A stretch of DNA of 32,627 nt from a bacterium (GCA_030149525.1 JASBRJ010000338.1:1-32627); one strand, 5' to 3'. Counted from the first letter of the stretch, positions 293 through 18,783 are shown. The notes: generated from the sequence alone by a model not told the origin. A program made the numbers and translations.

Positions 293-655
293 ATGACCTC
301 TCCAACTCTAAAAAGCGAACTCCGCCGAGGCGTCAACGCCTTCAATCTCACCGTCGGCTTTCTAACCTCAATCACCCTGGGAGCTCTAGCCTACTTCACA
401 GTCCCACCCCTCCACAGCCTCACCCACTCGGGTCTCCTCGCCCTTTTGGTGATGTTTCTTACGACAGGCCTTCATACCGCAGGTCACGCCTATTTCGGCT
501 GGCGGTTCGAAAAAGGAATCAGAGCTTTTCAGGAGGGACGCTTCCAAGAGGCGGTGATGCTTCTTGGCGTGGTGGAGAGAAAGGAAATGGACCACTTCGA
601 TCCCGACGGAGTGGCCCTTAGGGCTCTTCAAGAGAGTCGCGCAATGCTGGCTTAA
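293..655 (+). CDS. Small two-TM membrane protein, unknown function
   Basis: A 120-residue ORF. It has two hydrophobic segments, about residues 17-40 and 45-66. A soluble tail follows (GIRAFQEGRFQEAVMLL), which resembles a single TPR-like helix pair. The ATG has no clear Shine-Dalgarno sequence. The gene meets the minus-strand DUF2807-like gene tail to tail, with a 4-bp overlap of stop codons. I recognise no family. The membrane topology and TPR-like tail would fit a small inner-membrane protein, but no function can be assigned. Coding is plausible because the membrane segments are continuous and nothing better lies on the other strand. Confidence 0.55.
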   Translation: MTSPTLKSELRRGVNAFNLTVGFLTSITLGALAYFTVPPLHSLTHSGLLALLVMFLTTGLHTAGHAYFGWRFEKGIRAFQEGRFQEAVMLLGVVERKEMDHFDPDGVALRALQESRAMLA

Positions 656-1395
656 ATCTGAGAAACGCTACCGCTTCCAGAAATGGTCTTCTGAACAGAT
701 CGGGCCGGTCCCACATGATTGACATTGCCCGAACCGGCGAGAACAGCATTGAGGTCTCCGGTGACAGTCACGACACAGTTCCCAGACCCCGATGATGTGA
801 CCGAAGCCGTTTCACTACAAACCATATCCCGGGCGCTCAAGGAACCCGAGCCGTTCAATTGCACAGATAGCTCATCGCAGGTTCCCTTGAGGTCGATATT
901 CCCTGAACCGGCCACGCTGAGGGAGATTTTCTCGTACTCCGCTTCCAGTTCCACCTCGCTGGAGCCCCGAGAGGCCACGGTCAACTCCTGACCGGTGAAG
1001 ACTCCAGAGCCCTTCACGCTTCCCGAACCTTTCAGTCGGACCACTTTGAGTTCCGGCAAGCTTGTCGAGACGGTGAGACCCAATTGAGTGCTGTACGACT
1101 CGCTAGTCTCCACTATCAACACTCCGTCTTCCACCCGAGTCTGAACCAACTCCAACAGATTGTCGTCGCCGGTAATTTTGAGAGGACCCGGCTCGCCCTG
1201 GGCGATTTCGATGTTCACCGAACCGCGAGACTCCACACCGACAAACGGTTCCGATTCTTTGCTGAGCGTCGACGCAACACCTGAGCCCTTCACCCCGGTC
1301 CTCACAAAGAACTGAACGGAAACCAGAACCATAAGTGTGGCTACAGCCGCCAGGAAAGGTTTCCAGCTTTTTGGTGTTGGGTGGACTTCAGGCAT
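652..1395 (-). CDS. DUF2807-type (GIN domain) membrane-anchored beta-helical protein
   Basis: A 247-residue protein with an N-terminal membrane anchor or uncleaved signal (about residues 14-32). The rest is dominated by Gly-Ser turns spaced about every 20 residues (KGSGSVKGSG, VAGSGNIDLKG, LNGSGSLSA, LAGSGNVNHVG, ISGSGSVSQI). This pattern is typical of the DUF2807/GIN family, which folds as a right-handed beta-helix outside the cytoplasm. The biochemical role of the family is not settled. Its ATG lies 3 bp after the acyltransferase stop codon, so the two are almost certainly co-transcribed. An exported partner for a lipid-modifying enzyme is inferred from context only. Confidence 0.8.
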   Translation of the reverse strand: MPEVHPTPKSWKPFLAAVATLMVLVSVQFFVRTGVKGSGVASTLSKESEPFVGVESRGSVNIEIAQGEPGPLKITGDDNLLELVQTRVEDGVLIVETSESYSTQLGLTVSTSLPELKVVRLKGSGSVKGSGVFTGQELTVASRGSSEVELEAEYEKISLSVAGSGNIDLKGTCDELSVQLNGSGSLSARDMVCSETASVTSSGSGNCVVTVTGDLNAVLAGSGNVNHVGPARSVQKTISGSGSVSQI

Positions 1396-1398
1396 GGT

Positions 1399-2640
1399 TT
1401 ACTCCGGCTTCTTTCCGCTTTCCTGAATCGGGACCCACTCACGCTCAGCGTTACGCTCCACGCGCACCCACTTCCCGTCGGGCTGAAGACCCCATTCGTT
1501 GCCTTCCTGATCCATCTTGAAACGCTGCTCTTCACCGGTGATGTTAAACTTGGCTTGAGCCATGGCCGCGTGATGATCGGCGGTCAGCTTAGCGCCTTCT
1601 TTCCAGGCCGCTTTGGGGTCGTCGGAAGCGGCGGCTCGTTCCCGATAAGGAGCTACTTCGATAGGCTTCCCCACCTCCATGAAGGCCACCGGTCGGTGAG
1701 TCCAGTGATAGGTCATTCCTAACCCGGCGGCGCCGGTTAGACCTGCCGCGGCCGGAACCAGGATGTCGGTGGGAATCTGAGACGCTCCCACTGTGGCGCC
1801 GAGGGCCGCTCCGCCCACGGCTCCAAGGCCCGCTCCAAGAACTGTCTGAATGGTGGTGCGAGCGTTGTCGTCCTTCGGTCCCGTGAGGTATCCCGCCAGT
1901 CCGCCCACGGCCGCACCGGCGATCACACCGCCCAATCCGCCCATCACTCCGGGCATTCCCGCAAGCCCCACATAGACACCGGCACCTGCCGCAGCGGAGA
2001 GAAGTCCGCCTACGAAGGTCTCACCCCAGCGAGACTTGGTATCTTTGCCGAAGTGTTGAGCGACAGGGAGAGTGTAGTCCACCTTCGAGTTCATGGCGAT
2101 TCGGCCGATGCCCGACTTCAGCGGATAGACCTGTTTGTCGGCGTAAATGCGCCCTTCTGGATAGAAGGCGAAAGGTTTTCCTTGATCACAAATCTCGGCA
2201 GCATGCTCCACCGGGTCGGGAAAGTCACCTTCATACTCGCCGTATCGGTCGACCGGGAAGGTCCCGTAGTCTCGGAGCAGTTTACCGATGGGTCCGCGAA
2301 ACTCTTCGATGGCAGCCATGGAGCCGAACGGTCTCTTGCCCGGAACCTCAGCCACGAAAACGGCATCGAACATGGATTGGTGGGTGGAACCCACGATATA
2401 ACTTTTGTCTTCACCGGGGATGTTTTCGAGCCCCGTGTACTCGCGACGAAACATCAAGGGAATCGCCACGTCTTTGAGTCGACGGACCCACTTGGCCTTG
2501 TCTTCGTCCCAATAGTGTCGTGCATTGGGAGGCAGATTGAGTCCTTCGGTGCTCTTCTTCGGCTTGTCCGCCGGAGGCTGCTCTACAGCTTTTCTGGCGA
2601 CCGTTCTAGTGGGCCCCATCGAGGATGACGGTATATTCAT
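1399..2640 (-). CDS. PlsC-like 1-acylglycerol-phosphate acyltransferase with glycine-zipper insert
   Basis: A 413-residue protein likely to transfer an acyl chain to a glycerophospholipid or lyso-lipid. PlsC/LPLAT motifs appear in order: the catalytic HX4D box (HQSMFD, H87 and D92), block II GTFPVDR (126-132), block III FYPEGR (159-164) and the LPVAQ strand (190-194). The expected closing strand, FMEVGKPIEV, comes only at 320-329. Between them lies an insert of roughly 110 residues (about 206-312) with about four hydrophobic stretches full of GxxxG and AxxxG spacings. The N-terminal 30 residues look disordered. The C-terminal 45 residues hold two similar W/G motifs (GNEWGLQPDGKWVRV and REWVPI). 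AAGGA precedes the ATG with good spacing. The gene is divergent from the acyl-CoA synthetase, whose N-terminus also begins MNI.SS. The exact acceptor is unknown. Confidence 0.85.
   Translation of the reverse strand: MNIPSSSMGPTRTVARKAVEQPPADKPKKSTEGLNLPPNARHYWDEDKAKWVRRLKDVAIPLMFRREYTGLENIPGEDKSYIVGSTHQSMFDAVFVAEVPGKRPFGSMAAIEEFRGPIGKLLRDYGTFPVDRYGEYEGDFPDPVEHAAEICDQGKPFAFYPEGRIYADKQVYPLKSGIGRIAMNSKVDYTLPVAQHFGKDTKSRWGETFVGGLLSAAAGAGVYVGLAGMPGVMGGLGGVIAGAAVGGLAGYLTGPKDDNARTTIQTVLGAGLGAVGGAALGATVGASQIPTDILVPAAAGLTGAAGLGMTYHWTHRPVAFMEVGKPIEVAPYRERAAASDDPKAAWKEGAKLTADHHAAMAQAKFNITGEEQRFKMDQEGNEWGLQPDGKWVRVERNAEREWVPIQESGKKPE
1705..2025 (-). other. Glycine-zipper hydrophobic insert within the acyltransferase
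   Basis: Encodes about residues 206-312 of the acyltransferase. Four hydrophobic runs can be seen, at about 209-228, 230-253, 264-286 and 292-312. They are rich in Gly and Ala at four-residue spacing (for example GGLGGVIAGAAVGG and GAGLGAVGGAALGATVG). A short charged loop, GPKDDNAR, separates the second and third. Canonical PlsC proteins connect the flanking strands with a short loop, so this is an insertion. The membrane or oligomer role is inferred from glycine-zipper precedent. Confidence 0.75.
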
Positions 2641-2849
2641 AATGCGGTCCTTCTTTCAAGTGCATGAGATGGCACAGTAGGCCCACAGTTGCCCAAATTT
2701 TGCGCTTCTGGCCTGAAATAAATCTGAAAACGCAATTTAACGCGAATTTGACACTTCGAGGTTAATGTAATGTTGCAATTTGAACTTAACCGCATCGGGT
2801 TCACGGCCCACAGTGACTCTGCCAACTACGTCCGATGCCAGGGGACCAT

Positions 2850-5057
2850 ATGAATATTCAAAGCTCGAACCCGTTCAACAAGCTCACTTCTCAACCACAA
2901 AAAAAATCGGCGGCATCCTCGCAGGAGCCGCAGGAACAGCTGGATCTTTTCTCTCAGGCTAAGCAAGACTTCGCCGTTTTCAAGCCTTCGGTCGCCCTTA
3001 AGAAATGGGCCGACGAAGCGGAGATTAAAACCATTCCGCAGATGTTCGAAATGGCTATGGCAAAGGATCCCGATGCCGACTTCTTAGGCAAGAAGGTCAA
3101 CGGAAAGTTCGAGTACCTCACCTACGCCCAGGCCAACGAGCAACGCAAAAATTTCGCTTCCGGACTGATCGAACTGGGCCTTTTGACCGGTGAGAGAGTA
3201 GCGACCTACGCGGAAAACTCTCCCGAGTGGATGGTGGCCGATCTCGGCTCCATCACCGCTGGAACCGTTCACGCCCCGCTCTATCGCGATTCCAAAGCCG
3301 ACGCCATCGCTTTCAATCTTCAAAACGCCAAAGCCAAGCTGGTGGTGGTGGATGACGAGAAGCGACTCAAGGAACTCTTAGAGATTGAGAGCGAACTCCC
3401 CGATCTTCATACCATTGTGGTGAAGAACAAAGAGGGAGTGGAAAGTTCCAAGCGCCTGGTGACCTGGGACGAGGTCATGGAGATGGGGGCTGCCAACCGA
3501 GACAAGAACGCTTCCGAGCTTCAGCGTCGGGGCAAAGAGATGAAAGCCACCGATGTCGCCTCTATTGTTTTCACCTCCGGAACCACCGGAACTCCCAAAG
3601 CCGTCCTCCACACTCACGGTTCGTTGCTGAGTTCTGTAGAAGGCGCCCTCAAGATTATCACCAACGATCCCGAAGCGAATCTGAAAGACATCCACCTCAA
3701 AGGTGACAGCGAACTGGCACTCCTGCCTCTCGGACACATCTTCGAACGGATTGTGGCCTACTCTTTGACCGCCACCGGAGCCTCACTGGCCTATCCCAAC
3801 GGACACAAAGAGTTTCTCGACGACGTCAAGCAAACCCAGCCCACAGTCCTTGCGGCCGTGCCCAAGCTTTACAACACCATTATGGAAAAGGCCAGGGACA
3901 AAGCTCACGCCACTCCTCTGGTTTCTAAACCCGCCGGATACCTCGGGGGCGCCCTTGTCGGAGCTGCCGGAGGTGCCTTGGCCGCCGGTGGTGCCGGACT
4001 GGTGAGTTCCGTCCTCAACGGGGGAGACATTCTGGGTAACTTTATGAGCGGTCTCGGACCGGTTGGTGCGGCTGTGGGTGGAGCCGTCGGTCTTGGCCTG
4101 GGAATTTACGCCGCAAGCAAGACTCAAGGCGACATGTTCGACTGGGCTCTCAAAACCAGCGAGCAATACTACACGGAGCGAGATTCCGGTAGCGTTTCCA
4201 CAACGACCGGTCTCAAGCACGGTCTGGCCAAGAAATTGGTCTATAAGAACAGCAAGAAAGCTATGGAAAAGGTTCTGGGCAAGAATGTCCGGGCTATGAT
4301 TTCCGGTGGCGCGCCGCTACCGGACCAAACGTCCGTCTTTTTCTGGGACAACGGAATTCAGCTGAGCAACGGTTACGGAACGTCGGAAATGGGCGTCACC
4401 AATGTCAACCCTCTGAATAAGCAGAAGCTCGGTACTGTCGGGCCCGCTGTTCCCGGAGTGGAGATGGAGATTACCCCCGATCCGGATTTGGGTCAGGACC
4501 AGGGTGAGATTCGCTATCGCGGTCCGAACCTGATGCTCGGCTATCTCAACGATCCGGAGAAGACCGCTCAGGCGTTCGACAACACCGGCGCATACCTCAC
4601 CGGGGATATCGGGAAGACCGACAAAGACGGACATCTTCTCATCACAGGACGTTTGAAAAACTACATCGCGCTGGCCAGTGGAAAGAAAATCGCCTCCGAG
4701 CCGTTGGAGCAGATGTTGGAGCAAAGCCCTTTTATCGAGCAGTCTCTCGTGGTCGGCGAATCAAGACCGTATGTCGGTGCTCTCATCGTTCCGAATTTCG
4801 AGAAATTGGGCCAATGGGCCGCCGCCAACGGACATTCCTCCGAACCTGAGTCCATGGCTAAGAATCCTGCTGTCAAAGATTTCCTGGCTGGAGAGACCAA
4901 GCGCCTCACTGCCGAGAACGACCGTCACGAACAGATTTGGAAGATCGGGGTTGTGGGGCGAGAACTCACCGAGGAAGAACTCGCCAAAGGTGAGCCCAAG
5001 CGACCCGTGATGCTCAAGAACTTTGCCGACCTGGTGGATTCCATCTACGAGAAATAA
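2850..5057 (+). CDS. Long-chain acyl-CoA synthetase (AMP-binding) with glycine-zipper insert
   Basis: A 735-residue ANL-superfamily ligase that would activate fatty acids with ATP to acyl-AMP and then the thioester. Seen in order: P-loop TSGTTGTPK (242-250), LPLGHIFER (292-300), SGGAPL (485-490), NGYGTSEMG (507-515), YLTGDIG (582-588) and the hinge-lysine region ITGRLKNYIALASGKKI (598-614). This matches the FadD15/FAA class. Between the helix VPKLYNTIMEKA and the segment MFDWALK lies an extra Gly/Ala-rich hydrophobic block (about 360-423). I chose the ATG at 2850 because AGGGGA sits just upstream; an in-frame ATG at 2835 lacks one. It is divergent from the acyltransferase, and together they resemble a split version of the Aas ligase/acyltransferase fusion. 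PilZ follows after 75 bp. Confidence 0.9.
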   Translation: MNIQSSNPFNKLTSQPQKKSAASSQEPQEQLDLFSQAKQDFAVFKPSVALKKWADEAEIKTIPQMFEMAMAKDPDADFLGKKVNGKFEYLTYAQANEQRKNFASGLIELGLLTGERVATYAENSPEWMVADLGSITAGTVHAPLYRDSKADAIAFNLQNAKAKLVVVDDEKRLKELLEIESELPDLHTIVVKNKEGVESSKRLVTWDEVMEMGAANRDKNASELQRRGKEMKATDVASIVFTSGTTGTPKAVLHTHGSLLSSVEGALKIITNDPEANLKDIHLKGDSELALLPLGHIFERIVAYSLTATGASLAYPNGHKEFLDDVKQTQPTVLAAVPKLYNTIMEKARDKAHATPLVSKPAGYLGGALVGAAGGALAAGGAGLVSSVLNGGDILGNFMSGLGPVGAAVGGAVGLGLGIYAASKTQGDMFDWALKTSEQYYTERDSGSVSTTTGLKHGLAKKLVYKNSKKAMEKVLGKNVRAMISGGAPLPDQTSVFFWDNGIQLSNGYGTSEMGVTNVNPLNKQKLGTVGPAVPGVEMEITPDPDLGQDQGEIRYRGPNLMLGYLNDPEKTAQAFDNTGAYLTGDIGKTDKDGHLLITGRLKNYIALASGKKIASEPLEQMLEQSPFIEQSLVVGESRPYVGALIVPNFEKLGQWAAANGHSSEPESMAKNPAVKDFLAGETKRLTAENDRHEQIWKIGVVGRELTEEELAKGEPKRPVMLKNFADLVDSIYEK
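3927..4118 (+). other. Glycine-zipper hydrophobic insert within the acyl-CoA synthetase
   Basis: Encodes about residues 360-423, counted from the ATG at 2850. Two hydrophobic segments (GGALVGAAGGALAAGGAGLV, and GPVGAAVGGAVGLGLGIYAA) are separated by a short polar linker with NGGD. The flanking sequence is ordinary acyl-CoA synthetase on both sides. The reading frame is uninterrupted, so this is a genuine in-frame insert and not a frameshift artefact. Confidence 0.75.
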
Positions 5058-5132: not shown

Positions 5133-5828
5133 ATGCAACATCGTCAATGTGATCGAGTCGGGGTACCTTTACATAAGACCATACCAGTGAGGATGCGCAC
5201 GGAAAGTGGCACGATTTGTCACCGCTACGTGCGCTTTCTCGATCTCTCCGAAGGTGGCCTAAAGTTAAGTGGAGACTTACCGCCGCCTGACGAGCCCTTC
5301 TCTCTGGAGTTCAACGCCCGTCTTCTTTCTAAAGGGGCTCCCAAGGGTGTGGAAGAGGTTCACCTCAAGGTGGAGGCTCGATGGCAAAAAGACATCTATG
5401 GCGACATGTGGGTGGGCGGTTTCCAATTTCTGGAAGCCGACGAGGAGCAAGATGAAACCATCCGGCGACTCCTCCAAGAGCACAACGGCAACAGCCGCCC
5501 TCGTGCTCAACTGGAGAAGTATCTCAATGTCGGCCTGGTGCGACCGGGACGAGTGCAGTGGTACTATCCTCTGGTCAGCGAACTCGACGCCGAGCACATC
5601 GAACTTCAGAGTACCGAAGCTCTTCCGCTCAAGGAAACGTGTCAACTGGCCCTCTCTTTCAAGGAGGCCAACGTGGTCCACAAGGTGGATGCGGTCTTGG
5701 AGTTAAGGCATGACCTGGGCAGCACTTCTCGCTACAGGTTTACCTTCAAGAACCCCTCCGAAAGGCTTCAGAAAGAGATCCAGAGGTGCCTGAAGCTCGG
5801 TTCTCCCGGAGTTGATTCGGCAGCGTGA
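5133..5828 (+). CDS. Tandem PilZ-like c-di-GMP effector, second domain degenerate
   Basis: A 231-residue soluble protein. The N-terminal half has both PilZ c-di-GMP motifs: RxxxR (R4 and R8) and DxSxxG (D37, S39, G42). The second half (about 115-231) has the same length and beta-rich look, but I cannot find an intact DxSxxG, so it is probably a degenerate PilZ fold. AAGGAG stands 9 nt before the ATG. It follows the acyl-CoA synthetase in the same direction. It has the same size and layout as the minus-strand PilZ gene at 31409-32110. The output target is unknown. Confidence 0.8.
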   Translation: MQHRQCDRVGVPLHKTIPVRMRTESGTICHRYVRFLDLSEGGLKLSGDLPPPDEPFSLEFNARLLSKGAPKGVEEVHLKVEARWQKDIYGDMWVGGFQFLEADEEQDETIRRLLQEHNGNSRPRAQLEKYLNVGLVRPGRVQWYYPLVSELDAEHIELQSTEALPLKETCQLALSFKEANVVHKVDAVLELRHDLGSTSRYRFTFKNPSERLQKEIQRCLKLGSPGVDSAA

Positions 5829-5863
5829 AGTAGACTTGGCCTCGCTGTTCGAATGAGCGCCGA

Positions 5864-6289
5864 GTGCCCGATGAAATTGAAGAGAGAGGTCCCGAATGCT
5901 CCTATGAGGAGGCGTTCATCGAACCGATTTGGAGCCGCGAGTGGTTTCACGGTACGGGGGACCTTCTTTTTCATATTGAAGAATTGGCGGAGGCGCGCTC
6001 CTGTCCCGGACGGGGATTAGACGAACCGTTCCAATTTCGAGTGAGTCCGAACAGTATCAAGACTCTCACCCTGGGCCAGGGGAAGACTCTCTCCGAGCTG
6101 CTTGAAACCCAGGATCGGCTCCCTGAAGAGAAGGCTCGCCACATTCTCGAAGGGATCTGCGGCGGCCTTCGGCGACTCAAGCAGGGGTTGAAGCTCAGTC
6201 ATGGGCACATTGCTGAGATGTTTTTCAGGGCAGCCTTACTCGGGCGGGATAGAGAACTTCTTGACCTCTCTTTGGCTTCAGGTGCCTGA
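5864..6289 (+). CDS. Degenerate protein-kinase-like ORF (pseudokinase fragment)
   Basis: A 141-residue ORF with a GTG start. Residues about 72-139 read like the front of a Ser/Thr kinase C-lobe: TLSELLETQDRLPEEKAR, then a helix ending in LKLSHGHIAEMFF, then RELLDLSLASGA. Compared with the intact kinase at 10012 (HRDIKPSNILL...LIDFGIA), the catalytic Asp (HGH for HRD), the Lys and Asn of the loop, and the DFG motif are all replaced. The glycine loop and VAIK lysine are also not apparent. It is therefore predicted to be catalytically dead and truncated. Its stop overlaps the likely GTG start of the TPR gene by 8 bp. It could be a relic of a kinase-TPR fusion or a small binding protein. The GTG has only a weak ribosome site. 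Confidence 0.5.
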   Translation: MPDEIEERGPECSYEEAFIEPIWSREWFHGTGDLLFHIEELAEARSCPGRGLDEPFQFRVSPNSIKTLTLGQGKTLSELLETQDRLPEEKARHILEGICGGLRRLKQGLKLSHGHIAEMFFRAALLGRDRELLDLSLASGA

Positions 6290-7034
6290 GACGCTGCAAG
6301 CGAGAATCCCCGACGGTTGCCGAGCGGTCGAAGAGGGAGCCAGACTCTTTCAAAGAGGCCTTTTTGCCCAGGCCAGAACGCTTTGGGAGCACGCCGCCGA
6401 AGTCGACCCGGGATCCGTTGCCGCATGGAACAATCTCGCTGTGGCTCGACTGGCGCGAGGAGATTGGGAGCCCGCCCTTTTCGACCTGGAAAAGGCCTAC
6501 GGGGCCACCTCGGCACATCCCGTCATCGATCTGAATATAGGGACCTGTCTGCTTCACATGGGCGATCTCGCGTCGGCTCGGGTCTGGCTCACCAGAGCCC
6601 GAGAGATGAACCCCTGGTTAGGCGCGGCTTACCGGCTTCTCTCGGAACTGGCTATCTCGGAAGGAGACTTCGCAGCCGCTGAGCGCTGGGCCCGCCGAGG
6701 AGTCCTGGTCGATGAGAACTCTCGAGAGAGCAGGGGGCAACTGGCCCGTGTTCTGCAGGCCCAGTACAGACTCGCAGAAGCCCGGTTGCAGGCGGAATTC
6801 CTCCGCCGCCTCCCCATGCGAGCTCCTTTGCTGGATAATTTGATCGGCGCCGAGAGTGAGCCTCCCTGGGGCCGGATTCGTCTGGACGACGATGGAGGAG
6901 ACGGAGATGGAGGAGACGGAATTCCAGAACCTGTGTCCCCCTTTCCAAAGCGGCCTCTGCGCAGGTCGGTCTACGAGATCCCTGCGCGAAAAGGGGCTAT
7001 GACAGGCGAAGGTAGTCTGCCGTCTCTCTCATGA
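6282..7034 (+). CDS. TPR-repeat protein with acidic Gly-Asp tail
   Basis: About 250 residues from the GTG at 6282, which overlaps the upstream stop (GTGCCTGA). An in-frame ATG at 6201 is possible, but it would overlap the pseudokinase ORF by 89 bp. Several consecutive TPR units follow (GLFAQARTLWEHAAEVDPGS, then AAWNNLAVARLARGDWEPAL, IDLNIGTCLLHMGDLASARV, ELAISEGDFAAAERWARRGV). These imply a protein-protein interaction scaffold. The C-terminal part is low-complexity, with a DGGDG repeat, and lacks TPR character. The last 38 bp overlap the 3' end of convergent tyrA. No signal peptide is seen. Its binding partner is unknown; the adjacent kinase-like ORF is a candidate from context. Confidence 0.7.
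   Translation: MPETLQARIPDGCRAVEEGARLFQRGLFAQARTLWEHAAEVDPGSVAAWNNLAVARLARGDWEPALFDLEKAYGATSAHPVIDLNIGTCLLHMGDLASARVWLTRAREMNPWLGAAYRLLSELAISEGDFAAAERWARRGVLVDENSRESRGQLARVLQAQYRLAEARLQAEFLRRLPMRAPLLDNLIGAESEPPWGRIRLDDDGGDGDGGDGIPEPVSPFPKRPLRRSVYEIPARKGAMTGEGSLPSLS
6891..6920 (+). repeat. Perfect 15-bp tandem duplication inside the TPR gene
   Basis: GATGGAGGAGACGGA occurs at 6891-6905 and again at 6906-6920. It encodes the DGGDG pairs in the tail of the TPR protein. The period is a multiple of three, so copy-number change would keep the frame. Confidence 0.9.
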
Positions 7035-8097
7035 GTTGATGGAACCGGGTTCCGTCTTCGGCTTTAGCGGCTTCGCAAAACTCTGCCAGAGATTCGTTAA
7101 CGTCGTTGAGCATATCTTCGGTGTAAGTGTTGAAATATTGAATTTCGTGGTAGAGAAAAGGGTTTTCCTCGGCGACTTCGGCTGCGGTCTTAATCTGCTT
7201 GGCGAAGGTGGTACTGGCCACTTTGCCCAGAAGTTCGAAGGGGAAGCTTGAGCGGGAGACAGCACGACCGAAGATGAGATTTATCAAGTGACTCATCCCC
7301 AGGACTACGGTCATAAGTCGATCATGCTCTTCCAGGGCTACTTCATAGAGACCCAAGGCTGTATCGGCAAAGAGTGAGCGGGCAAGATCGGTGGCCTCTC
7401 GGTTTCCGCAATCGCAGACCAGAACCGCTCGACCGCTCAATAGGACCGTTCCAGGGGCGAACATGGGGTGAATCGAGGTGACTCGCGCCCCCTGGGAAGT
7501 CGCTTCCCTGAGCGGTTTCACAAGCTCGGCTTTCAGGCTTGCGATATCAAAGATAACTGGTTGTTGCTTTCTCCCTTCCACCAAACCCAGGAGTTCTTCC
7601 AGGATGGTAGGGGTGGCGGAAAGGGTGGTGGCCAGAACAATGACGTCGGCAGAACGGGCCGCTTCTTCAAGCGAGAGAGCGATTTCCGAGAACGGCCCGG
7701 GATGAGGGTCGGTAATGCTCACCTTGTGACCTTGTGACTCGAAGAAACGGGTTAGCCAGGTGCCCATGCGGCCGTGTCCCCCCACGACATGAATCCATTT
7801 TCGGGGACTCGCGTGAACAACGGGAGGAAGTTCAGCTTGAGTTTGCACGGCGGCCCGCATCAGAAGTTCCGAGATCTCTTCTGCGACTCGCTCGTCCAAT
7901 CCAACCTGGCGTGCCCGCTCTCGAGCCCGCTTAAGGACCTGGACCTCCACCGTGAAATCTCGGATAGGGAGGCCTTTCTTCTGCTTGATCTCGCCGATGG
8001 CTTTGGTGGTTTCCAGTCGCTGGGAAACGAGTTGAAGTATCTGTTTGTCTAATTCGCCAACCTTTTGGCGCAGTTCGGAAAGGTCCATATCTGACAT
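6997..8097 (-). CDS. tyrA: Bifunctional chorismate mutase-prephenate dehydrogenase (T-protein type)
   Basis: Converts chorismate to prephenate and then, with NAD, to 4-hydroxyphenylpyruvate for tyrosine synthesis. The N-terminal AroQ chorismate mutase domain is about residues 5-90. It has LRQKV, QRLETTKAIGEIK, the Asp of IRDF, the Glu of VEVQVL and the distal Gln of VQTQ. The Arg that normally precedes that Glu is Val, and the Ser four residues before the Gln is Ala. The dehydrogenase half has the Rossmann motif VVGGHGRMG, SIHPMFAP and EEHDRLMTVVLGMSHL, most like enterobacterial T-protein. I prefer the ATG at 8097 (MSDMDLSEL); a GTG at 8115 adds six residues, and neither has a good ribosome site. 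It is divergent from folB and converges on the TPR gene. Confidence 0.92.
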   Translation of the reverse strand: MSDMDLSELRQKVGELDKQILQLVSQRLETTKAIGEIKQKKGLPIRDFTVEVQVLKRARERARQVGLDERVAEEISELLMRAAVQTQAELPPVVHASPRKWIHVVGGHGRMGTWLTRFFESQGHKVSITDPHPGPFSEIALSLEEAARSADVIVLATTLSATPTILEELLGLVEGRKQQPVIFDIASLKAELVKPLREATSQGARVTSIHPMFAPGTVLLSGRAVLVCDCGNREATDLARSLFADTALGLYEVALEEHDRLMTVVLGMSHLINLIFGRAVSRSSFPFELLGKVASTTFAKQIKTAAEVAEENPFLYHEIQYFNTYTEDMLNDVNESLAEFCEAAKAEDGTRFHQLMRETADYLRLS

Positions 8098-8152
8098 TTG
8101 GGCTCGGTTTGCCACGAGGAGGAATAATCCTAGAATCCGAAGCGCCTCACCA

Positions 8153-8515
8153 GTGCGGGATTATCTGTTTTTTGAAGGTATGTCCATCGACTGCATCATC
8201 GGCTTGGCCGAATGGGAGCGGATGGTTAAGCAAACAGTCATTCTGGACCTGAAGCTCGGGGTAGACATCCGGAAGGTAGCCTCCACCGACCAGGTCTCGG
8301 AGGGTGACTTCAATACCAAGAAGTTGTCCAAAAGGCTCCGGGCCTTCGTGGAGAACAGCCAGTTTCAGCTGATCGAAACTCTAGCTGAGAAAGTTGCCGC
8401 GCTGATCCTGGAGGAGTTTCCCGTCACTTTCGTGGAACTCCGCCTATCGAAACCCGGAGCCATTCGTGGTTCCGACAACGTTGGGGTCGTAATTTTTCGA
8501 GGAGATGACATATGA
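8153..8515 (+). CDS. folB: Dihydroneopterin aldolase-family protein
   Basis: A 120-residue protein of normal FolB length. The family makes 6-hydroxymethyl-dihydropterin from dihydroneopterin in folate synthesis. Recognised features: FFEGMSIDCIIGLAEWER with the conserved Glu (E22), FVENSQFQLIETLAEKVA, and LSKPGAIRGSDNVGV with the catalytic Lys (K100). The usual catalytic Tyr of the D-x-[VL]-x-Y motif appears to be Thr (DFNTKKL, T55). The GTG start is chosen because the family begins about eight residues before EGM. The open frame continues upstream, but that part does not look like FolB. It is coupled to folK through an ATGA overlap. FolX-like epimerase or altered activity is possible. Confidence 0.88.
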   Translation: MRDYLFFEGMSIDCIIGLAEWERMVKQTVILDLKLGVDIRKVASTDQVSEGDFNTKKLSKRLRAFVENSQFQLIETLAEKVAALILEEFPVTFVELRLSKPGAIRGSDNVGVVIFRGDDI

Positions 8516-9066
8516 CTTTGGTAGTTCTTGATTTGGGAACCAACATCGACCGCGAGGAGTCCCTGGCCGCCGCCTTAGAACACTTGGCCGACCATTTTGA
8601 ACTCAAAAGGGCTTCCTCCGTATTTCGCACCACCCCTGTGGGAATGCTGAATCAACCTGACTTTTACAACGTCTCTCTCGAGGTGGAGACAGACAAATCC
8701 ATCGATCAGATTCGAGACATTGTCCGCAGTATCGAAGACAAAATGGGCCGTGACCGAACCGGCCCGAAGTTCGGACCTCGAAATATTGACATCGACATTG
8801 TCGTCTACGGTGACACGGTGGACGAAGAGAAGAGAGTTCCTCACCCCCAGTCATCCAGTGAACTCTTCGTCGTGGCCCCTATTGCCGAACTTTGCCCGGA
8901 TGGAAAGCATCCCAAAACCGGGGAGACGTGGAAAGACTTGCGAAGCAAGCTTGTCAACGGCCGAATTCCTAAGGACGCGGGGGTAGACCGTCAGTGCGAT
9001 CTCGCGGCGCTGCCTCTGGGGGAGAAGGCTAAGAGCGCTCTCGTCAAGGGTGGAAGCGTCGTCTAG
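8512..9066 (+). CDS. folK: HPPK: 6-hydroxymethyl-7,8-dihydropterin pyrophosphokinase
   Basis: Transfers pyrophosphate from ATP to hydroxymethyl-dihydropterin, the step after FolB. Diagnostic features: LDLGTNIDREESL at the N-terminus, SSVFRTTPVGMLNQPDFYNV, then GRDRTGPKFGPRNIDIDI with the two Mg-binding Asp residues, VPHPQ and LFVVAPIAEL. The catalytic core is intact. A tail of about 35 residues beyond the usual end is unassigned. The ATG overlaps the folB stop (ATGA), and GAGGAG lies 7 nt upstream, so translation is coupled. No folP or folE is in the window. The gene ends just before a bidirectional terminator. Confidence 0.93.
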   Translation: MTLVVLDLGTNIDREESLAAALEHLADHFELKRASSVFRTTPVGMLNQPDFYNVSLEVETDKSIDQIRDIVRSIEDKMGRDRTGPKFGPRNIDIDIVVYGDTVDEEKRVPHPQSSSELFVVAPIAELCPDGKHPKTGETWKDLRSKLVNGRIPKDAGVDRQCDLAALPLGEKAKSALVKGGSVV

Positions 9067-9091
9067 TCGAGGTCTTTCCTGTAAGTAAGAG

Positions 9092-9128
9092 TTTAGGCCC
9101 TGAGCGTCAGTGACACTCGGGGCCTAAA
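9092..9128. terminator. Bidirectional hairpin terminator between folK and the SDR gene
   Basis: A 13-bp stem pairs 9092-9104 (TTTAGGCCCTGAG) with 9116-9128 (CTCGGGGCCTAAA), with one G-T wobble and an 11-nt loop. It sits exactly between two convergent genes. The AT pairs at the base give short A and U runs for both directions, though the U tract is weak. Confidence 0.8.
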
Positions 9129-9133
9129 TTGTT

Positions 9134-9865
9134 CTACAGGTTAACCGTTCTTCCGCCGTCTACCGCGACTATTTGGCCGGTAATGTAGTCGGCTCCGGTC
9201 AAAAAGACCACCGTATCGGCGATAGAGTCGGCTCCACCGAACCTCCCCATAGGAACCTGCGATAACATCTTGTCCATGTTGTCACCGGCGTTGGGAGGAG
9301 GGAGGGCCGCACCAGGGGAGACTCCGTTGACCCGAACATCGGGCGCAAGTTCGAGGGCCATGCTCTTGGTCAAGGCTTCCAATCCGGACTTGGCCACCGA
9401 GTACGGGAGGTGTCTCCTGAGGGGGAAGCGAGCCCAAATATCGACGATGTTCACGATGCATCCCTTCTCTTGTTTGAGCAAAGGCAAGCAGTGCATAGAC
9501 AGAAGAAAAGGCGATTTGAGGTTGACCATCTGAAACCGATCCCAATGCTCCACCCATTGCTCCGGTTGAGGGGTAGGATAAAAGATGGAGGCGTTGTTGA
9601 CCAAAACTTTTAAGCCTTGGTCGAGAGAGAGCACTTGGTCGGCGAGTTTACGGATCTCAGATTCCTGGGAGAGGTCGGCCTGGACCAAATGGGCTTTTCT
9701 TCCAGCTTGTTCCACGGCGGCAGCCGTCTCGAGGGCGGGTTGACGGGAGCTGTTGTAGTGAACCAGGATGTCGTATCCGGCCTTTGCTAATTGAATTGCC
9801 GAGGCTTGTCCCAATCGTATGCCGGCTCCTGTGACCAGGGCCAATGGGGAAGGATTGTCTGTCAT
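9134..9865 (-). CDS. Pteridine reductase-like short-chain dehydrogenase (PTR1/FolM type)
   Basis: A 243-residue NADPH-type SDR. PTR1/FolM hallmarks rather than generic SDR ones are present: TGAGIRLG for the nucleotide loop with the early Arg, HYNSSRQPA, NNASIFYPTP, and the catalytic set with Asp in place of Ser (NIVDIWARFP) followed by YSVAK. The C-terminus closes with ITGQIVAVDGGRTVNL. The family reduces dihydropterins or dihydrofolate. Its position facing folB-folK supports a pterin substrate. GAGGAA lies about 11 nt upstream of the ATG, within a small hairpin (9881-9894). The exact substrate (dihydrobiopterin, dihydrofolate or other) cannot be told from sequence. Confidence 0.85.
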   Translation of the reverse strand: MTDNPSPLALVTGAGIRLGQASAIQLAKAGYDILVHYNSSRQPALETAAAVEQAGRKAHLVQADLSQESEIRKLADQVLSLDQGLKVLVNNASIFYPTPQPEQWVEHWDRFQMVNLKSPFLLSMHCLPLLKQEKGCIVNIVDIWARFPLRRHLPYSVAKSGLEALTKSMALELAPDVRVNGVSPGAALPPPNAGDNMDKMLSQVPMGRFGGADSIADTVVFLTGADYITGQIVAVDGGRTVNL

Positions 9866-9894: not shown

Positions 9895-10011
9895 GGCGCC
9901 TTTTGCAACAGATTCGAAACCGGTATTTGTTCCCATGGGAGGCCAGGGGCCACCCTTGGGGAATATCGGCTCATTGCAGGTTTATGCTGCGTGAGAGATT
10001 AGGTAGAGACG

Positions 10012-11190
10012 ATGGATTACGCGCAGATCCCTCCGGGCGAGGTCCTCGACGGCCGCTTTGAAGTCCGCCGCCTCATTAAGTCCGGAGGCATGGGGGCAGT
10101 ATACGAGGTTTCCGACCGCCTACTGGGCGGTAAAACTTTTGCCGTAAAACAGATCCGCCCCTCCGCCGACCCCAAAGAGTTTCAACAGGCCAAGAGCCAC
10201 TTCATCGGCGAGATCGGCGTGATGCAATCTCTTCACCATCCCAACATCCCGAAGATCATCAGTTCCTTTTTTCTGGGCGACTCGTTCTTTTTTGTGATGG
10301 AGTTTGTGGACGGAATCGATCTGTCGGCTTATCGTAAGAAGCACGGCCCGAACGGACTTCCAGTGGCCAAGGTAGTAGGATGGGCGATTCAGGTTCTAGA
10401 CGCTCTGGATTATGTTCATGACCGCCAGAATCCGGTGGTGCATCGCGATATCAAGCCCTCCAACATTCTGTTGGATGAAGTCAATAACCGCATCGTTCTC
10501 ATCGACTTCGGAATCGCTCACGCAACCGATCCCGCCGATGGATGGATCGGCACTCCAGGATACGCCGGCGTGGAACAACAGTTAGGGAAACCGGAGCCTC
10601 GCTCGGATCTCTACGCCCTGGCCGCCACCATGCATGAACTGCTCACCGGCCTGAAGCCTAAGAGCTTTGATTTTGTGACCCTGGCAGACCTTAAAGTGGA
10701 GGCTCCGGAAGGTTTGCAGGACATCCTCGATTACGCCCTGGAACCTTACGCCGAGGAGAGGATCGCCAGTGCGAAGGAAATGAAGGAAGCTCTCCTTCGC
10801 TTGCCCGGGCTTTCCATCGAAGGTCCTTCGGAGAATCGCGAGCACGCTTTCGATGTGGCGGCCAACACCATTAACCGCGAAGCCATCGTTCCGGGTCTCA
10901 AGGAGTTGATCGAGCGTTTTGGGAACGAGTGCCAGACACCGTATCTCCCGGCCACCCTCTCTTTTAATCGCTTCGTCCTAGGGGCCATGACGTCGTTCGA
11001 GCTAGTTATCACAAAAGACGACCAGCGTGAGTCGATCCGTTTTGAAGAAAAGCAAGGTCTTCTGGCTCCCGTGCTTTTGGGAGAAGTGTTTCCTCTCAAG
11101 AATCCGTCGCCCGAACCGGTGAAAGAGATCATCGAGCGGTTTGCCGCCGACTATGAGCAGTTTAAGAACTCTTCTTGGCAGATTCTCTAA
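10012..11190 (+). CDS. Hanks-type Ser/Thr protein kinase with unassigned C-terminal domain
   Basis: A 392-residue soluble kinase. The catalytic domain spans about residues 14-265. It has the glycine loop KSGGMGAVY, the ATP-binding Lys in FAVKQI (K46), a helix-C Glu (E67), HRDIKPSN (D146, N151) and IDFGIAH (D165). The activation segment GTPGYAGVEQ has GVE where APE or PPE is usual. The kinase is predicted active. Residues about 270-392 form a separate mixed alpha/beta region that I do not recognise. There is no membrane segment, unlike PknB/PASTA kinases. AGGTAG precedes the ATG. The gene is divergent from the SDR and followed by 238 bp before the wecA-atp unit. Substrates unknown. Confidence 0.92.
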   Translation: MDYAQIPPGEVLDGRFEVRRLIKSGGMGAVYEVSDRLLGGKTFAVKQIRPSADPKEFQQAKSHFIGEIGVMQSLHHPNIPKIISSFFLGDSFFFVMEFVDGIDLSAYRKKHGPNGLPVAKVVGWAIQVLDALDYVHDRQNPVVHRDIKPSNILLDEVNNRIVLIDFGIAHATDPADGWIGTPGYAGVEQQLGKPEPRSDLYALAATMHELLTGLKPKSFDFVTLADLKVEAPEGLQDILDYALEPYAEERIASAKEMKEALLRLPGLSIEGPSENREHAFDVAANTINREAIVPGLKELIERFGNECQTPYLPATLSFNRFVLGAMTSFELVITKDDQRESIRFEEKQGLLAPVLLGEVFPLKNPSPEPVKEIIERFAADYEQFKNSSWQIL

Positions 11191-12403: not shown

Positions 12404-12434
12404 AAACCTGTCCAAATAACCAAGGAGGCGATTC

Positions 12435-13613
12435 GTGTCGCAAGAGCCGCTCCGCGTACTCACAGTTTTTGGTACTCGGCCTGAAGCTATCAAAATGGCG
12501 CCTGTAGTCAAGGCGCTGCAAGCTCACCCCATGACCGATGTCGAAGTCGTCGTCACCGGTCAGCATCGGGAGATCCTCGATCAGGTCTTGGAGTTGTTTG
12601 AGATCGATCCCGACGATGATCTCAATATCATGAAGCCTCGGCAGACTCTCTACGGTCTCACGGCCAACGCTCTCAACGGGATGGCTCCTGTTTTGGAGAA
12701 GTCCCGTGCCGAGGTGACTCTGGTGCAGGGGGACACGACAACGGCTTTTGCCGCCGGCCTGGCTAGCTTCTATGCCAAGATACCGGTGGGTCATATCGAG
12801 GCCGGCTTGCGTACCGAAGATGTCTACGAGCCGTTTCCTGAAGAGATGAATCGTCGTCTTCTTTCAACGCTCTGTCACTTTCATTTTCCCCCCACTCAAG
12901 GATCGCTTGAGAACTGTCTGGCTTGCGGGATTCCTAGGGAAAGAATCTATGTCACCGGTAACACTGTGACCGATGCTCTCTTGCATGTGGCTAACGGGCT
13001 GCCGTCGGGTCTTCCTGAAGGGCTTGTGGATTTGCCTGAAGGGGCTCGCTACATCCTGGTGGAGACCCATCGTCGAGAGAATCTCGGCGAGCCCATGCGG
13101 GATGTCTGTATGGCTCTCAAGGATCTCGTGGCGAAGCATTCCGATCTCCATATCGTTTTCAGTGTTCATCCAAATCCGGCGGTGAGAGATGTTGTCTTTC
13201 CTGAGCTGAAGGGTCGTGAGCGGGTTCATCTTTTGGAGCCTGTGGATTATCCCATCTTGATTCGGTTGATTCGCGAGTGTGCTCTCATTCTGACCGACAG
13301 TGGTGGGATTCAGGAGGAGGCGCCCAGTTTAGGGAAGCCTGTTCTCGTCTTGAGAAGGCAGACCGAGCGTCCTGAGGGCGTGGATGCCGGTGTGGCCGAG
13401 TTGATGGGGACGGATCGGGCAAAAATTGTGGAGCGAGCTTCTCAGCTATGGACCGATGCGGCTGCCTATACGCGAATGAGTCAGATAGCCTCTCCCTATG
13501 GGGATGGTGAGGCGGCCAGAAGGACGGTTGAGGCGCTTCTTTATGAATTGCGCGGAATCGGCCCTAGACCCACGGAGTTTCTGCCCGCTGCGGTAGGTGT
13601 CGGTGGAGCCTGA
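12435..13613 (+). CDS. wecB: UDP-N-acetylglucosamine 2-epimerase (non-hydrolysing)
   Basis: A 392-residue cytosolic enzyme interconverting UDP-GlcNAc and UDP-ManNAc. Motifs: FGTRPEAIKMAPV (12-24), TGQHREIL, VQGDTTTA (97-104), GHIEAGLRT (119-127), PFPEEMNRRL, VETHRREN with the catalytic-region His (H212), and DSGGIQEEAPSLGKPVLVLR followed by TERPEG. AAGGAGG precedes the GTG start. It follows the wecA-like gene, which also uses UDP-GlcNAc, so the two may supply a ManNAc-containing surface glycan. Its end overlaps atpZ by 17 bp, tying it to the ATP synthase genes. Confidence 0.95.
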   Translation: MSQEPLRVLTVFGTRPEAIKMAPVVKALQAHPMTDVEVVVTGQHREILDQVLELFEIDPDDDLNIMKPRQTLYGLTANALNGMAPVLEKSRAEVTLVQGDTTTAFAAGLASFYAKIPVGHIEAGLRTEDVYEPFPEEMNRRLLSTLCHFHFPPTQGSLENCLACGIPRERIYVTGNTVTDALLHVANGLPSGLPEGLVDLPEGARYILVETHRRENLGEPMRDVCMALKDLVAKHSDLHIVFSVHPNPAVRDVVFPELKGRERVHLLEPVDYPILIRLIRECALILTDSGGIQEEAPSLGKPVLVLRRQTERPEGVDAGVAELMGTDRAKIVERASQLWTDAAAYTRMSQIASPYGDGEAARRTVEALLYELRGIGPRPTEFLPAAVGVGGA

Positions 13614-17256: not shown

Positions 17257-18783
17257 ATGGCGATTCGAGCCGAAGAGATCAGTGATATTCTCGTAAAAGA
17301 GATCGAGGGATATGATCCCGAGGTCAAGGATCTCCCGTACGGGACGGTCGTGCAGGTGGGGGACAATATTGCAACTGTCTACGGTCTGCGCGATGCCCGA
17401 GCCGGTGAGTTGCTCTCCTTCGCTGGTGGCGAACTCGGTATCGCCATGAACCTCGAAGAAGACACAATTGGTGCCGTTATCATGGGTGACGACACCGAGA
17501 TTAAAGAGGGTGACCGAGTAGAGAGCACCGGCAAAATTGCCGAGGTTCCTGTAGGTGAAGCCCTCCTGGGGCGCGTTATCGACGCCCTTGGTAACCCCAT
17601 CGACGGCCGGGGTCCTATTGAGACCACCGAAACCCGTACGATTGAGTTTACCGCTCCCACTGTTCCTGAAAGGGAGAGTGTACACGAGCCTCTGCAAACC
17701 GGTATTAAAGCGGTAGATGCTCTGATTCCCATCGGTCGCGGTCAGCGTGAGTTGATCATCGGTGACCGCCAAACTGGTAAAACTGCTATCGCGGTCGACG
17801 CCATTGTGAATCAGCGCGATACGGACTGCTACTGCGTTTACGTGGCTATCGGTCAAAAGACCAACAACGTAGCGGCTGTTGTGGACAACTTGAGAGAAGC
17901 GGGCGCCCTGGACGGCAAAACCGTAATCGTTTCGGCTAGTGCCAACGAGTCTCCCTCGATGCTCTATCTCGCCCCCTACACAGGTTGCGCTATCGCCGAG
18001 CAGTTAATGTACGAAGGTAAGCACGTCCTCATCGTTTATGACGACCTTACCAAGCACGCTAACGCGTACCGCGAGATTTCCCTCTTGCTGCGTCGTCCTC
18101 CGGGACGGGAAGCGTATCCTGGTGACGTATTCTTCTTGCACTCACGTCTTCTGGAAAGAGCAGCTAAGCTGCACAAGAGCCTGGGCGGTGGTTCTATGAC
18201 CGCACTGCCCATCATTGAGACTCAACTCGGCGACGTATCGGCTTACATTCCCACTAACGTAATTTCCATTACCGACGGTCAGATCTTCCTCGACAACGAC
18301 TTGTTCTATCAAGGTATCCGACCGGCTGTGGATGTTGGTATCTCGGTATCTCGCGTGGGTGGTTCGGCTCAGATCAAAGCTATGAAAAAAGTAGCCGGTC
18401 CTCTGCGTCTCGACCTTGCTCAATATCGTGCGCTGGCTGCTTACGCTAAGCTGTCCGCCGACGAACTCGATAAGCAGTCCCGAGAGCAGCTGGCTCGCGG
18501 TGCTCGTTTGACCGAGATTCTCAAGCAGAAGCAGTTCGACGTTATGCCGGTTGAGCTACAGGTGTGTATCCTGTACGCTGCAACTCAGGGTCACCTCGAC
18601 GACATTGAAGTGGAAGACATCAAAGAGTTTGAGAACGGCTTCCACGACTACGTTAAGGCCAATCACGCCGACATCCACAAAGAGCTGGTTGAGAAGAAAT
18701 CTCTCTCTGATGAGTTGAACGCCAAGTTGGACGCAGCGATTAAGTCGTACAAAGAGGAGTTTCTCGCCGGCCGCAACGCTTAG
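17257..18783 (+). CDS. atpA: ATP synthase F1 subunit alpha
   Basis: A 508-residue non-catalytic nucleotide-binding subunit of full normal length. Walker A is GDRQTGKT (169-176). The [11 protein letters not shown] segment carries the arginine finger that completes the beta catalytic site. GGAGG precedes the ATG. The sequence is highly conserved, with no odd substitutions noticed. Codon use looks more biased toward a few codons than in the flanking accessory genes, as expected for a highly expressed gene. Confidence 0.98.

Follow-up and report, generated by a model that had tools for sequence, protein, structure and literature searches.

In Escherichia coli, an acyltransferase and an acyl-acyl carrier protein (acyl-ACP) synthetase are fused in one protein, Aas. 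In eukaryotes, ACSL3 and GPAT4, an acyl-CoA synthetase and an acyltransferase, are held on lipid droplets by monotopic hairpin anchors (PMC12687460), and repeated GxxxG motifs occur in membrane-active segments of Tde1, CdzC/D and MamF-like proteins (PMC10240207, PMC5380434, PMC11628618). Here we analyze a bacterial stretch of 32,627 nt (GCA_030149525.1 JASBRJ010000338.1:1-32627; hereafter the window, contig C240 of the 8.27-Mb genome G000), in which two divergent genes encode a PlsC-type acyltransferase (AT) and a long-chain acyl-CoA synthetase (ANL), each interrupted in frame by a glycine (Gly)-zipper insert. Both proteins are members of known families; the open-access literature on Gly zippers in acyltransferases or on PlsC/Aas held no description of such inserts.

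The closest named relatives are Candidatus Eremiobacterota metagenome-assembled genomes together with isolate SZAS-1 and bin EREM-KAN-1, and a narrower search for relatives of the locus returned eight loci, all in Eremiobacterota-type genomes. No relatives were found in viral contigs, and a viral origin was rejected. Within the class, we compared G000-G006, the seven members of families f1 and f2, with 11 other genomes.

Two lipid enzymes carry conserved Gly-zipper inserts

The inserts lie at identical sites in 8/8 AT homologues (orthologues and close paralogues within one family, sharing 44-51% identity with the window AT) and in 3/3 ANL orthologues (61% identical). In AT, the insert sits between the LPVAQ strand and the GKPIEV strand and is modeled as four helices (residues 205-227, 230-253, 259-285 and 294-314; AlphaFold with nine AT sequences, predicted local distance difference test (pLDDT) ~40-53), which in this low-confidence model form two hairpins with a charged loop, PKDDNAR. 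In ANL, it occupies the loop following the PKLYNTIMEKA helix and adds ~68 amino acids relative to an insert-free paralogue from the same genome (G000:C241; 205 versus 137 amino acids over the same stretch). Its two hydrophobic segments can be read as one hairpin with Pro404 at the turn. The alignments thus bear out the preliminary description, which had placed Gly/Ala-rich inserts between conserved motifs of both enzymes and put their lengths at 107 and 64 residues, close to the ~112 and ~68-72 measured here.

Glycines are more often invariant than the other insert residues (11/28 Gly versus 16/84 other residues in AT; 13/21 versus 13/50 in ANL). The GxxxG spacing proposed earlier is seen as an invariant GxxxGxxxGxxxG in both proteins (G234/G238/G242/G246 in AT; G406/G410/G414/G418 in ANL); the excess of invariant glycines at spacing four, taken alone, is weak (p 0.05 for AT and 0.13 for ANL). 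Ratios of nonsynonymous to synonymous substitution (dN/dS) are low throughout: 0.12 in the AT insert versus 0.06 in the core, 0.03 versus 0.02 in an AT paralogue (AT2), and 0.046 versus 0.113 in ANL, where the insert is more constrained than the core. Tandem-repeat scoring detected no large DNA repeat array in either insert; at the lowest threshold the ANL insert yielded a single marginal array of 19 bp, and the AT insert yielded no array. Because the inserts are conserved at the same sites, show dN/dS of 0.03-0.12 and lack a large repeat array, we consider them functional: they are real features, kept by purifying selection.

The same constraint and the missing repeat array lead us to reject an origin by slippage or low complexity. 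Inserts and leaders might still be lineage-specific low-complexity expansions that serve no specific role, given their Gly/Ala richness and the varying insert size among orthologues (~20 amino acids shorter in the ANL of G001, G003 and G004 than in the window). The invariant glycines, the conserved sites, the lack of a large array and the dN/dS values, below those of the core in ANL, have already largely refuted this, and we regard it as very unlikely.

On a simplified hydrophobicity scale comparing insert segments with real transmembrane helices and soluble segments, the four AT and two ANL segments are intermediate between the two classes. Their predicted helical, marginally hydrophobic character fits membrane anchoring. 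Alternatively, each insert could stay out of the membrane altogether, either as a soluble domain or as an extension of the acyl-binding tunnel that makes room for very long or unusual chains. Marginal hydrophobicity and a position within catalytic folds would suit such a role; against it stand almost uncharged runs at least ~20 residues long and the similar segments found in small stand-alone proteins. We hold it to be improbable.

AT and ANL retain the hallmarks of their families

Residues 66-187 of AT match PF01553 in a Pfam search (E 4e-14; 52.8 bits against a gathering score of 23), and the catalytic motifs HX4D (H87, D92) and PEG (P161-G163; E162, G163) are invariant among its orthologues, placing AT among the PF01553 acyltransferases. 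Foldseek returned Thermotoga PlsC (TmPlsC, 5kym) as the top match to the AT model (E 1e-4). AT misses the cut-off for PlsC sensu stricto, TIGR00530, with 40.2 versus 102.95 bits. ANL retains the P-loop TSGTTGTPK, YGxSE and TGD motifs and qualifies as an ANL acyl-CoA synthetase, C-terminal domain included. The first ATG of the ANL frame lies at 2835; since every orthologue begins at the MNI.. methionine at 2850, we take this as the start, and AT and ANL therefore both begin MNI.SS (MNIPSS and MNIQSS, respectively), as previously described. AT orthologues start with MNIT, MKIQ, MKVQ, MKLT, MQIT or MQIM; the leaders are loosely conserved (dN/dS 0.18-0.31).

The region between the two genes may be the site of both promoters, a candidate assignment made from gene layout (Table 1). 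Immediately downstream of the AT gene, the window encodes a DUF2807 (head GIN domain) protein (652-1395, minus strand).

Table 1. Coordinates of the AT-ANL locus within the window
Feature	Coordinates	Strand	Basis or remarks
AT, PlsC-type acyltransferase, 413 aa	1399..2640	-	PF01553, Foldseek 5kym, HX4D + PEG
AT Gly-zipper insert, aa ~205-316, ~112 residues	~1693..2028	-	alignment, structure model, dN/dS
AT N-terminal leader MNIPSS + Pro/Lys-rich linker, aa 1-33	2542..2640	-	predicted disordered, pLDDT 34-67
Intergenic region of the divergent AT/ANL genes, 209 bp	2641..2849	.	coordinates
ANL, long-chain acyl-CoA synthetase, 735 aa	2850..5057	+	PF00501 E 9e-73, PF23562 E 9e-12
ANL N-terminal leader MNIQSS + Gln/Ser/Pro linker, aa ~1-36	2850..2957	+	MNITS in three orthologues
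ANL Gly-zipper insert, aa ~356-427, ~68-72 residues	~3915..4130	+	alignment, hydrophobicity, dN/dS

The two inserts often co-occur but are separable

Insert-bearing ANL genes occur in G000 and G002 (two each), G001, G003, G004 and G006 (a copy clipped at the contig end); at E<=1e-20 none was found in the 11 other class genomes or in G005, which is 82% complete. Insert-bearing AT genes occur in G000-G006 and in G015, so that no genome has an insert-bearing ANL but lacks an insert-bearing AT. G015 is 100% complete and has no insert-bearing ANL at E<=1e-20, which shows that the AT insert exists without the ANL insert. Such inserts are uncommon in ordinary PlsC and FadD proteins of the phylum, removing a concern raised with the original proposal; ordinary ANL proteins align in two pieces that flank the insert.

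AT and ANL are divergent neighbors in G000 (directly adjacent), G001, G003 and G004. A second arrangement consists of tandem paralogous ANL-AT pairs with inserts in both partners, at G000:C235 and G002:C119 (L067:3210-5525 (-) with 2168-3208 (-); L068:7616-9916 with 9925-11103 (+)). A second Gly-zipper hairpin is present just before the C-terminal domain in the ANL paralogues from G000:C235 and G002 and in the partial ANL from G006. AT2-type paralogues with an insert were also found with no ANL on the examined stretch (G001:C33, G003:C118, G004:C75 and G005:C35), and G002:C170 holds an orphan ANL with no linked AT.

These patterns bear on the proposal that the inserts are helix-helix modules joining AT to ANL, a split analogue of the Aas fusion that would channel acyl groups. 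The conserved neighborhood, the joint presence in G000-G004 and G006 and the second doubly inserted pair speak for it; the AT genes lacking a nearby ANL in four genomes, G015, the orphan ANL and the occurrence of like segments in unrelated proteins speak against it, and we think it unlikely. Strict co-dependence of the two proteins is not upheld in view of G015 and the AT paralogues with no ANL nearby. What survives of the suggested pairing is the repeated neighborhood in two arrangements and a largely shared occurrence, which is not private to these two enzymes. Joining and membrane anchoring are not incompatible.

An acyl-CoA oxidase gene (PF22924/PF01756) lies between or beside AT and ANL in G001, G003 and G004, and AT adjoins one in G005. 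The G000 homologue (70%) is on a different contig and begins M-N-V followed by a Ser/Ala linker. The oxidases encoded at L066:11989-14091 (-), L064:8653-10761 (-) and L153 ~7830-9829 (-) start with MMNTNNN.. or MNVHQK.. as a leader, accompanied by an Ala/Pro/Ser linker.

Unrelated proteins share the leader and Gly-zipper design

An M[NQK][IV].. start is joined to a Pro/Gln/Ser linker and to Gly-zipper segments in various kinds of protein encoded by these genomes. Among G001 contigs not chosen for AT or ANL, the leader M[NQK][IV][QTSAN] was associated with zippers (4/9 versus 15/1048, Fisher p 9e-6, one of several rules tried, on home-made gene calls as in all our leader statistics). The association recurred in loci of other genomes after exclusion of AT and ANL, a non-random set retrieved for other reasons (2/4 versus 4/295, p 0.002). 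Of the earlier suggestion that the inserts anchor the enzymes or let them bind one another, the first part fits these data, and an exclusive AT-ANL lock gives way to a design shared with unrelated proteins.

It is possible, if rather doubtful, that this Eremiobacterota lineage tags lipid enzymes, a metallopeptidase-like protein and small oleosin-like proteins, all unrelated, with short N-terminal leaders and Gly-zipper hairpins, some of these lying within catalytic folds, for a common compartment such as a lipid droplet, which would be a previously undescribed bacterial targeting scheme.

Several further proteins were noted. Near an AT2-type gene of G003, L074:1-1523 (-) encodes an M28/M42-peptidase-like protein with an MKIQSS leader, a Pro-rich linker and hydrophobic Gly/Ala segments. 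Two neighboring leader and Gly-zipper proteins at L160:10725-12383 and 12413-13483 (+) had no Pfam match, the first bearing a long charged tail that is probably coiled-coil. MKVAS-leader proteins at L097:9965-11302 (+) and 17684-18574 (-) gave weak glucosaminidase/CHAP and C39-peptidase matches. A 189-amino-acid leader and Gly-zipper protein of G003 (L149:3749-4318 (+)) lies beside a stand-alone FlhA homologue (5437-7542 (+)), whose G001 copy scores 740 bits, below the FlhA cut-off. G000-G006 contain many partial PF00771 matches spanning only positions ~328-654.

The leader could also be a type III (flagellar-type) export signal, with low-hydrophobicity hairpins escaping inner-membrane targeting and the enzymes acting as secreted lipid modifiers. 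Exported transmembrane segments are moderately hydrophobic (PMC6110835); short polar N termini with disordered linkers occur also on some putative wall hydrolases, and the FlhA neighbor in G003 would suit export. However, the only export genes recognized were FlhA-type; SctV described the scanned FlhA homologues less well than FlhA did, and its cut-off was reached by none of them. The leaders are loosely conserved, and AT and ANL are predicted to require CoA and ATP, which are cytosolic. VipB of the type VI secretion system was found in 0/8 genomes and a sheath in G004 only, which counts against export and leads us to reject cargo of that system or of an extracellular contractile injection system. 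We consider export quite unlikely.

Neutral-lipid synthesis genes occur in the same genomes

Wax-ester/triacylglycerol synthase (WS/DGAT, PF03007) is encoded in 7/7 genomes G000-G006 and in 0/11 other class genomes, a distribution that equals that of insert-bearing ANL except in G005; the G003 protein exceeds the TIGR02946 cut-off. Neutral-lipid synthesis is thus encoded in the same organisms, in keeping with the droplet parallel. In G003, a 138-amino-acid MQIQ-leader protein with small-residue hydrophobic segments and an oleosin-like build (L235:3259-3675 (-)) is flanked by a fatty acyl-CoA reductase on one side and an alpha/beta hydrolase-WS/DGAT run on the other. At G000:C313, a single frame joins a fatty acyl-CoA reductase domain to a WS/DGAT domain (L238:763-3378 (-)). 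Polyhydroxyalkanoate granules were rejected as a destination; the genomes with AT and ANL show only fragmentary, sub-threshold PhaC_N matches.

Discussion

The account we favor, drawn from sequence features and given about an even chance, is that the hairpins serve as docking elements through which cytosolic acyl-CoA enzymes attach to a membrane or a neutral-lipid droplet. The inserts would form helical Gly/Ala hairpins, two in AT and one in ANL, lying at a membrane surface, most likely that of the cytoplasmic membrane and/or neutral-lipid droplets, and the catalytic folds would remain cytosolic. ANL would convert free fatty acids to acyl-CoA, and AT would transfer the acyl group to a (lyso)lipid acceptor, the substrates of both being putative; in relatives, the oxidase encoded between them could divert acyl-CoA to oxidation. 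As members of a lineage-specific set of leader, linker and hairpin proteins, AT and ANL would share a location. Membrane insertion, droplet location and AT-ANL cooperation are all steps that we infer.

Several observations weigh against this account. With simplified free energies of +2.4 to +4.2, the segments are marginal candidates for inserting on their own. The ANL structure model was unusable (pLDDT 40; four sequences, single chain), so that the ANL hairpin is proposed from sequence. A first, stricter leader definition gave 1/6 versus 18/1051 (p 0.10), and the rule was broadened once that result had been seen. Phylogeny and genome size both confound the shared distribution of WS/DGAT and insert-bearing ANL, the WS/DGAT locus is unlinked to the AT-ANL locus, and the 138-amino-acid protein lies beside WS/DGAT in G003 only, its G004 homologue being elsewhere.

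Hairpins kept by selection within two soluble-type catalytic folds would represent an unusual route from peripheral lipid enzyme to membrane protein. Should the leader-hairpin set mark the proteome of a lipid body, lipid storage in this largely uncultured phylum would become accessible from sequence, and the droplet anchoring of ACSL3 and GPAT4 would have a counterpart in bacteria.

Compared with PlsC, a 1-acylglycerol-3-phosphate acyltransferase (PF01553; 5kym), AT has the core fold and the HX4D and EG(R) motifs but falls below the TIGR00530 cut-off and adds a leader, the ~112-residue insert before the GKPI strand and a ~90-residue C-terminal extension. ANL has the core motifs and the AMP-binding_C_3-type C-terminal domain of FadD/ACSL-type synthetases (PF00501 and PF23562), to which it adds a leader and a Gly-zipper hairpin, and its paralogues one more hairpin ahead of the C-terminal domain. 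Together, AT and ANL hold the same two predicted activities as Aas, but as neighboring, unfused genes with Gly-zipper inserts. Tde1, CdzC/D and MamF-like proteins are toxins or organelle assembly proteins, whereas the segments described here lie inside metabolic enzymes. ACSL3 and GPAT4 offer a parallel in mode of action, for which we claim no homology: unlike them, AT and ANL are bacterial, and their hairpins are Gly/Ala-rich and set within the catalytic fold.

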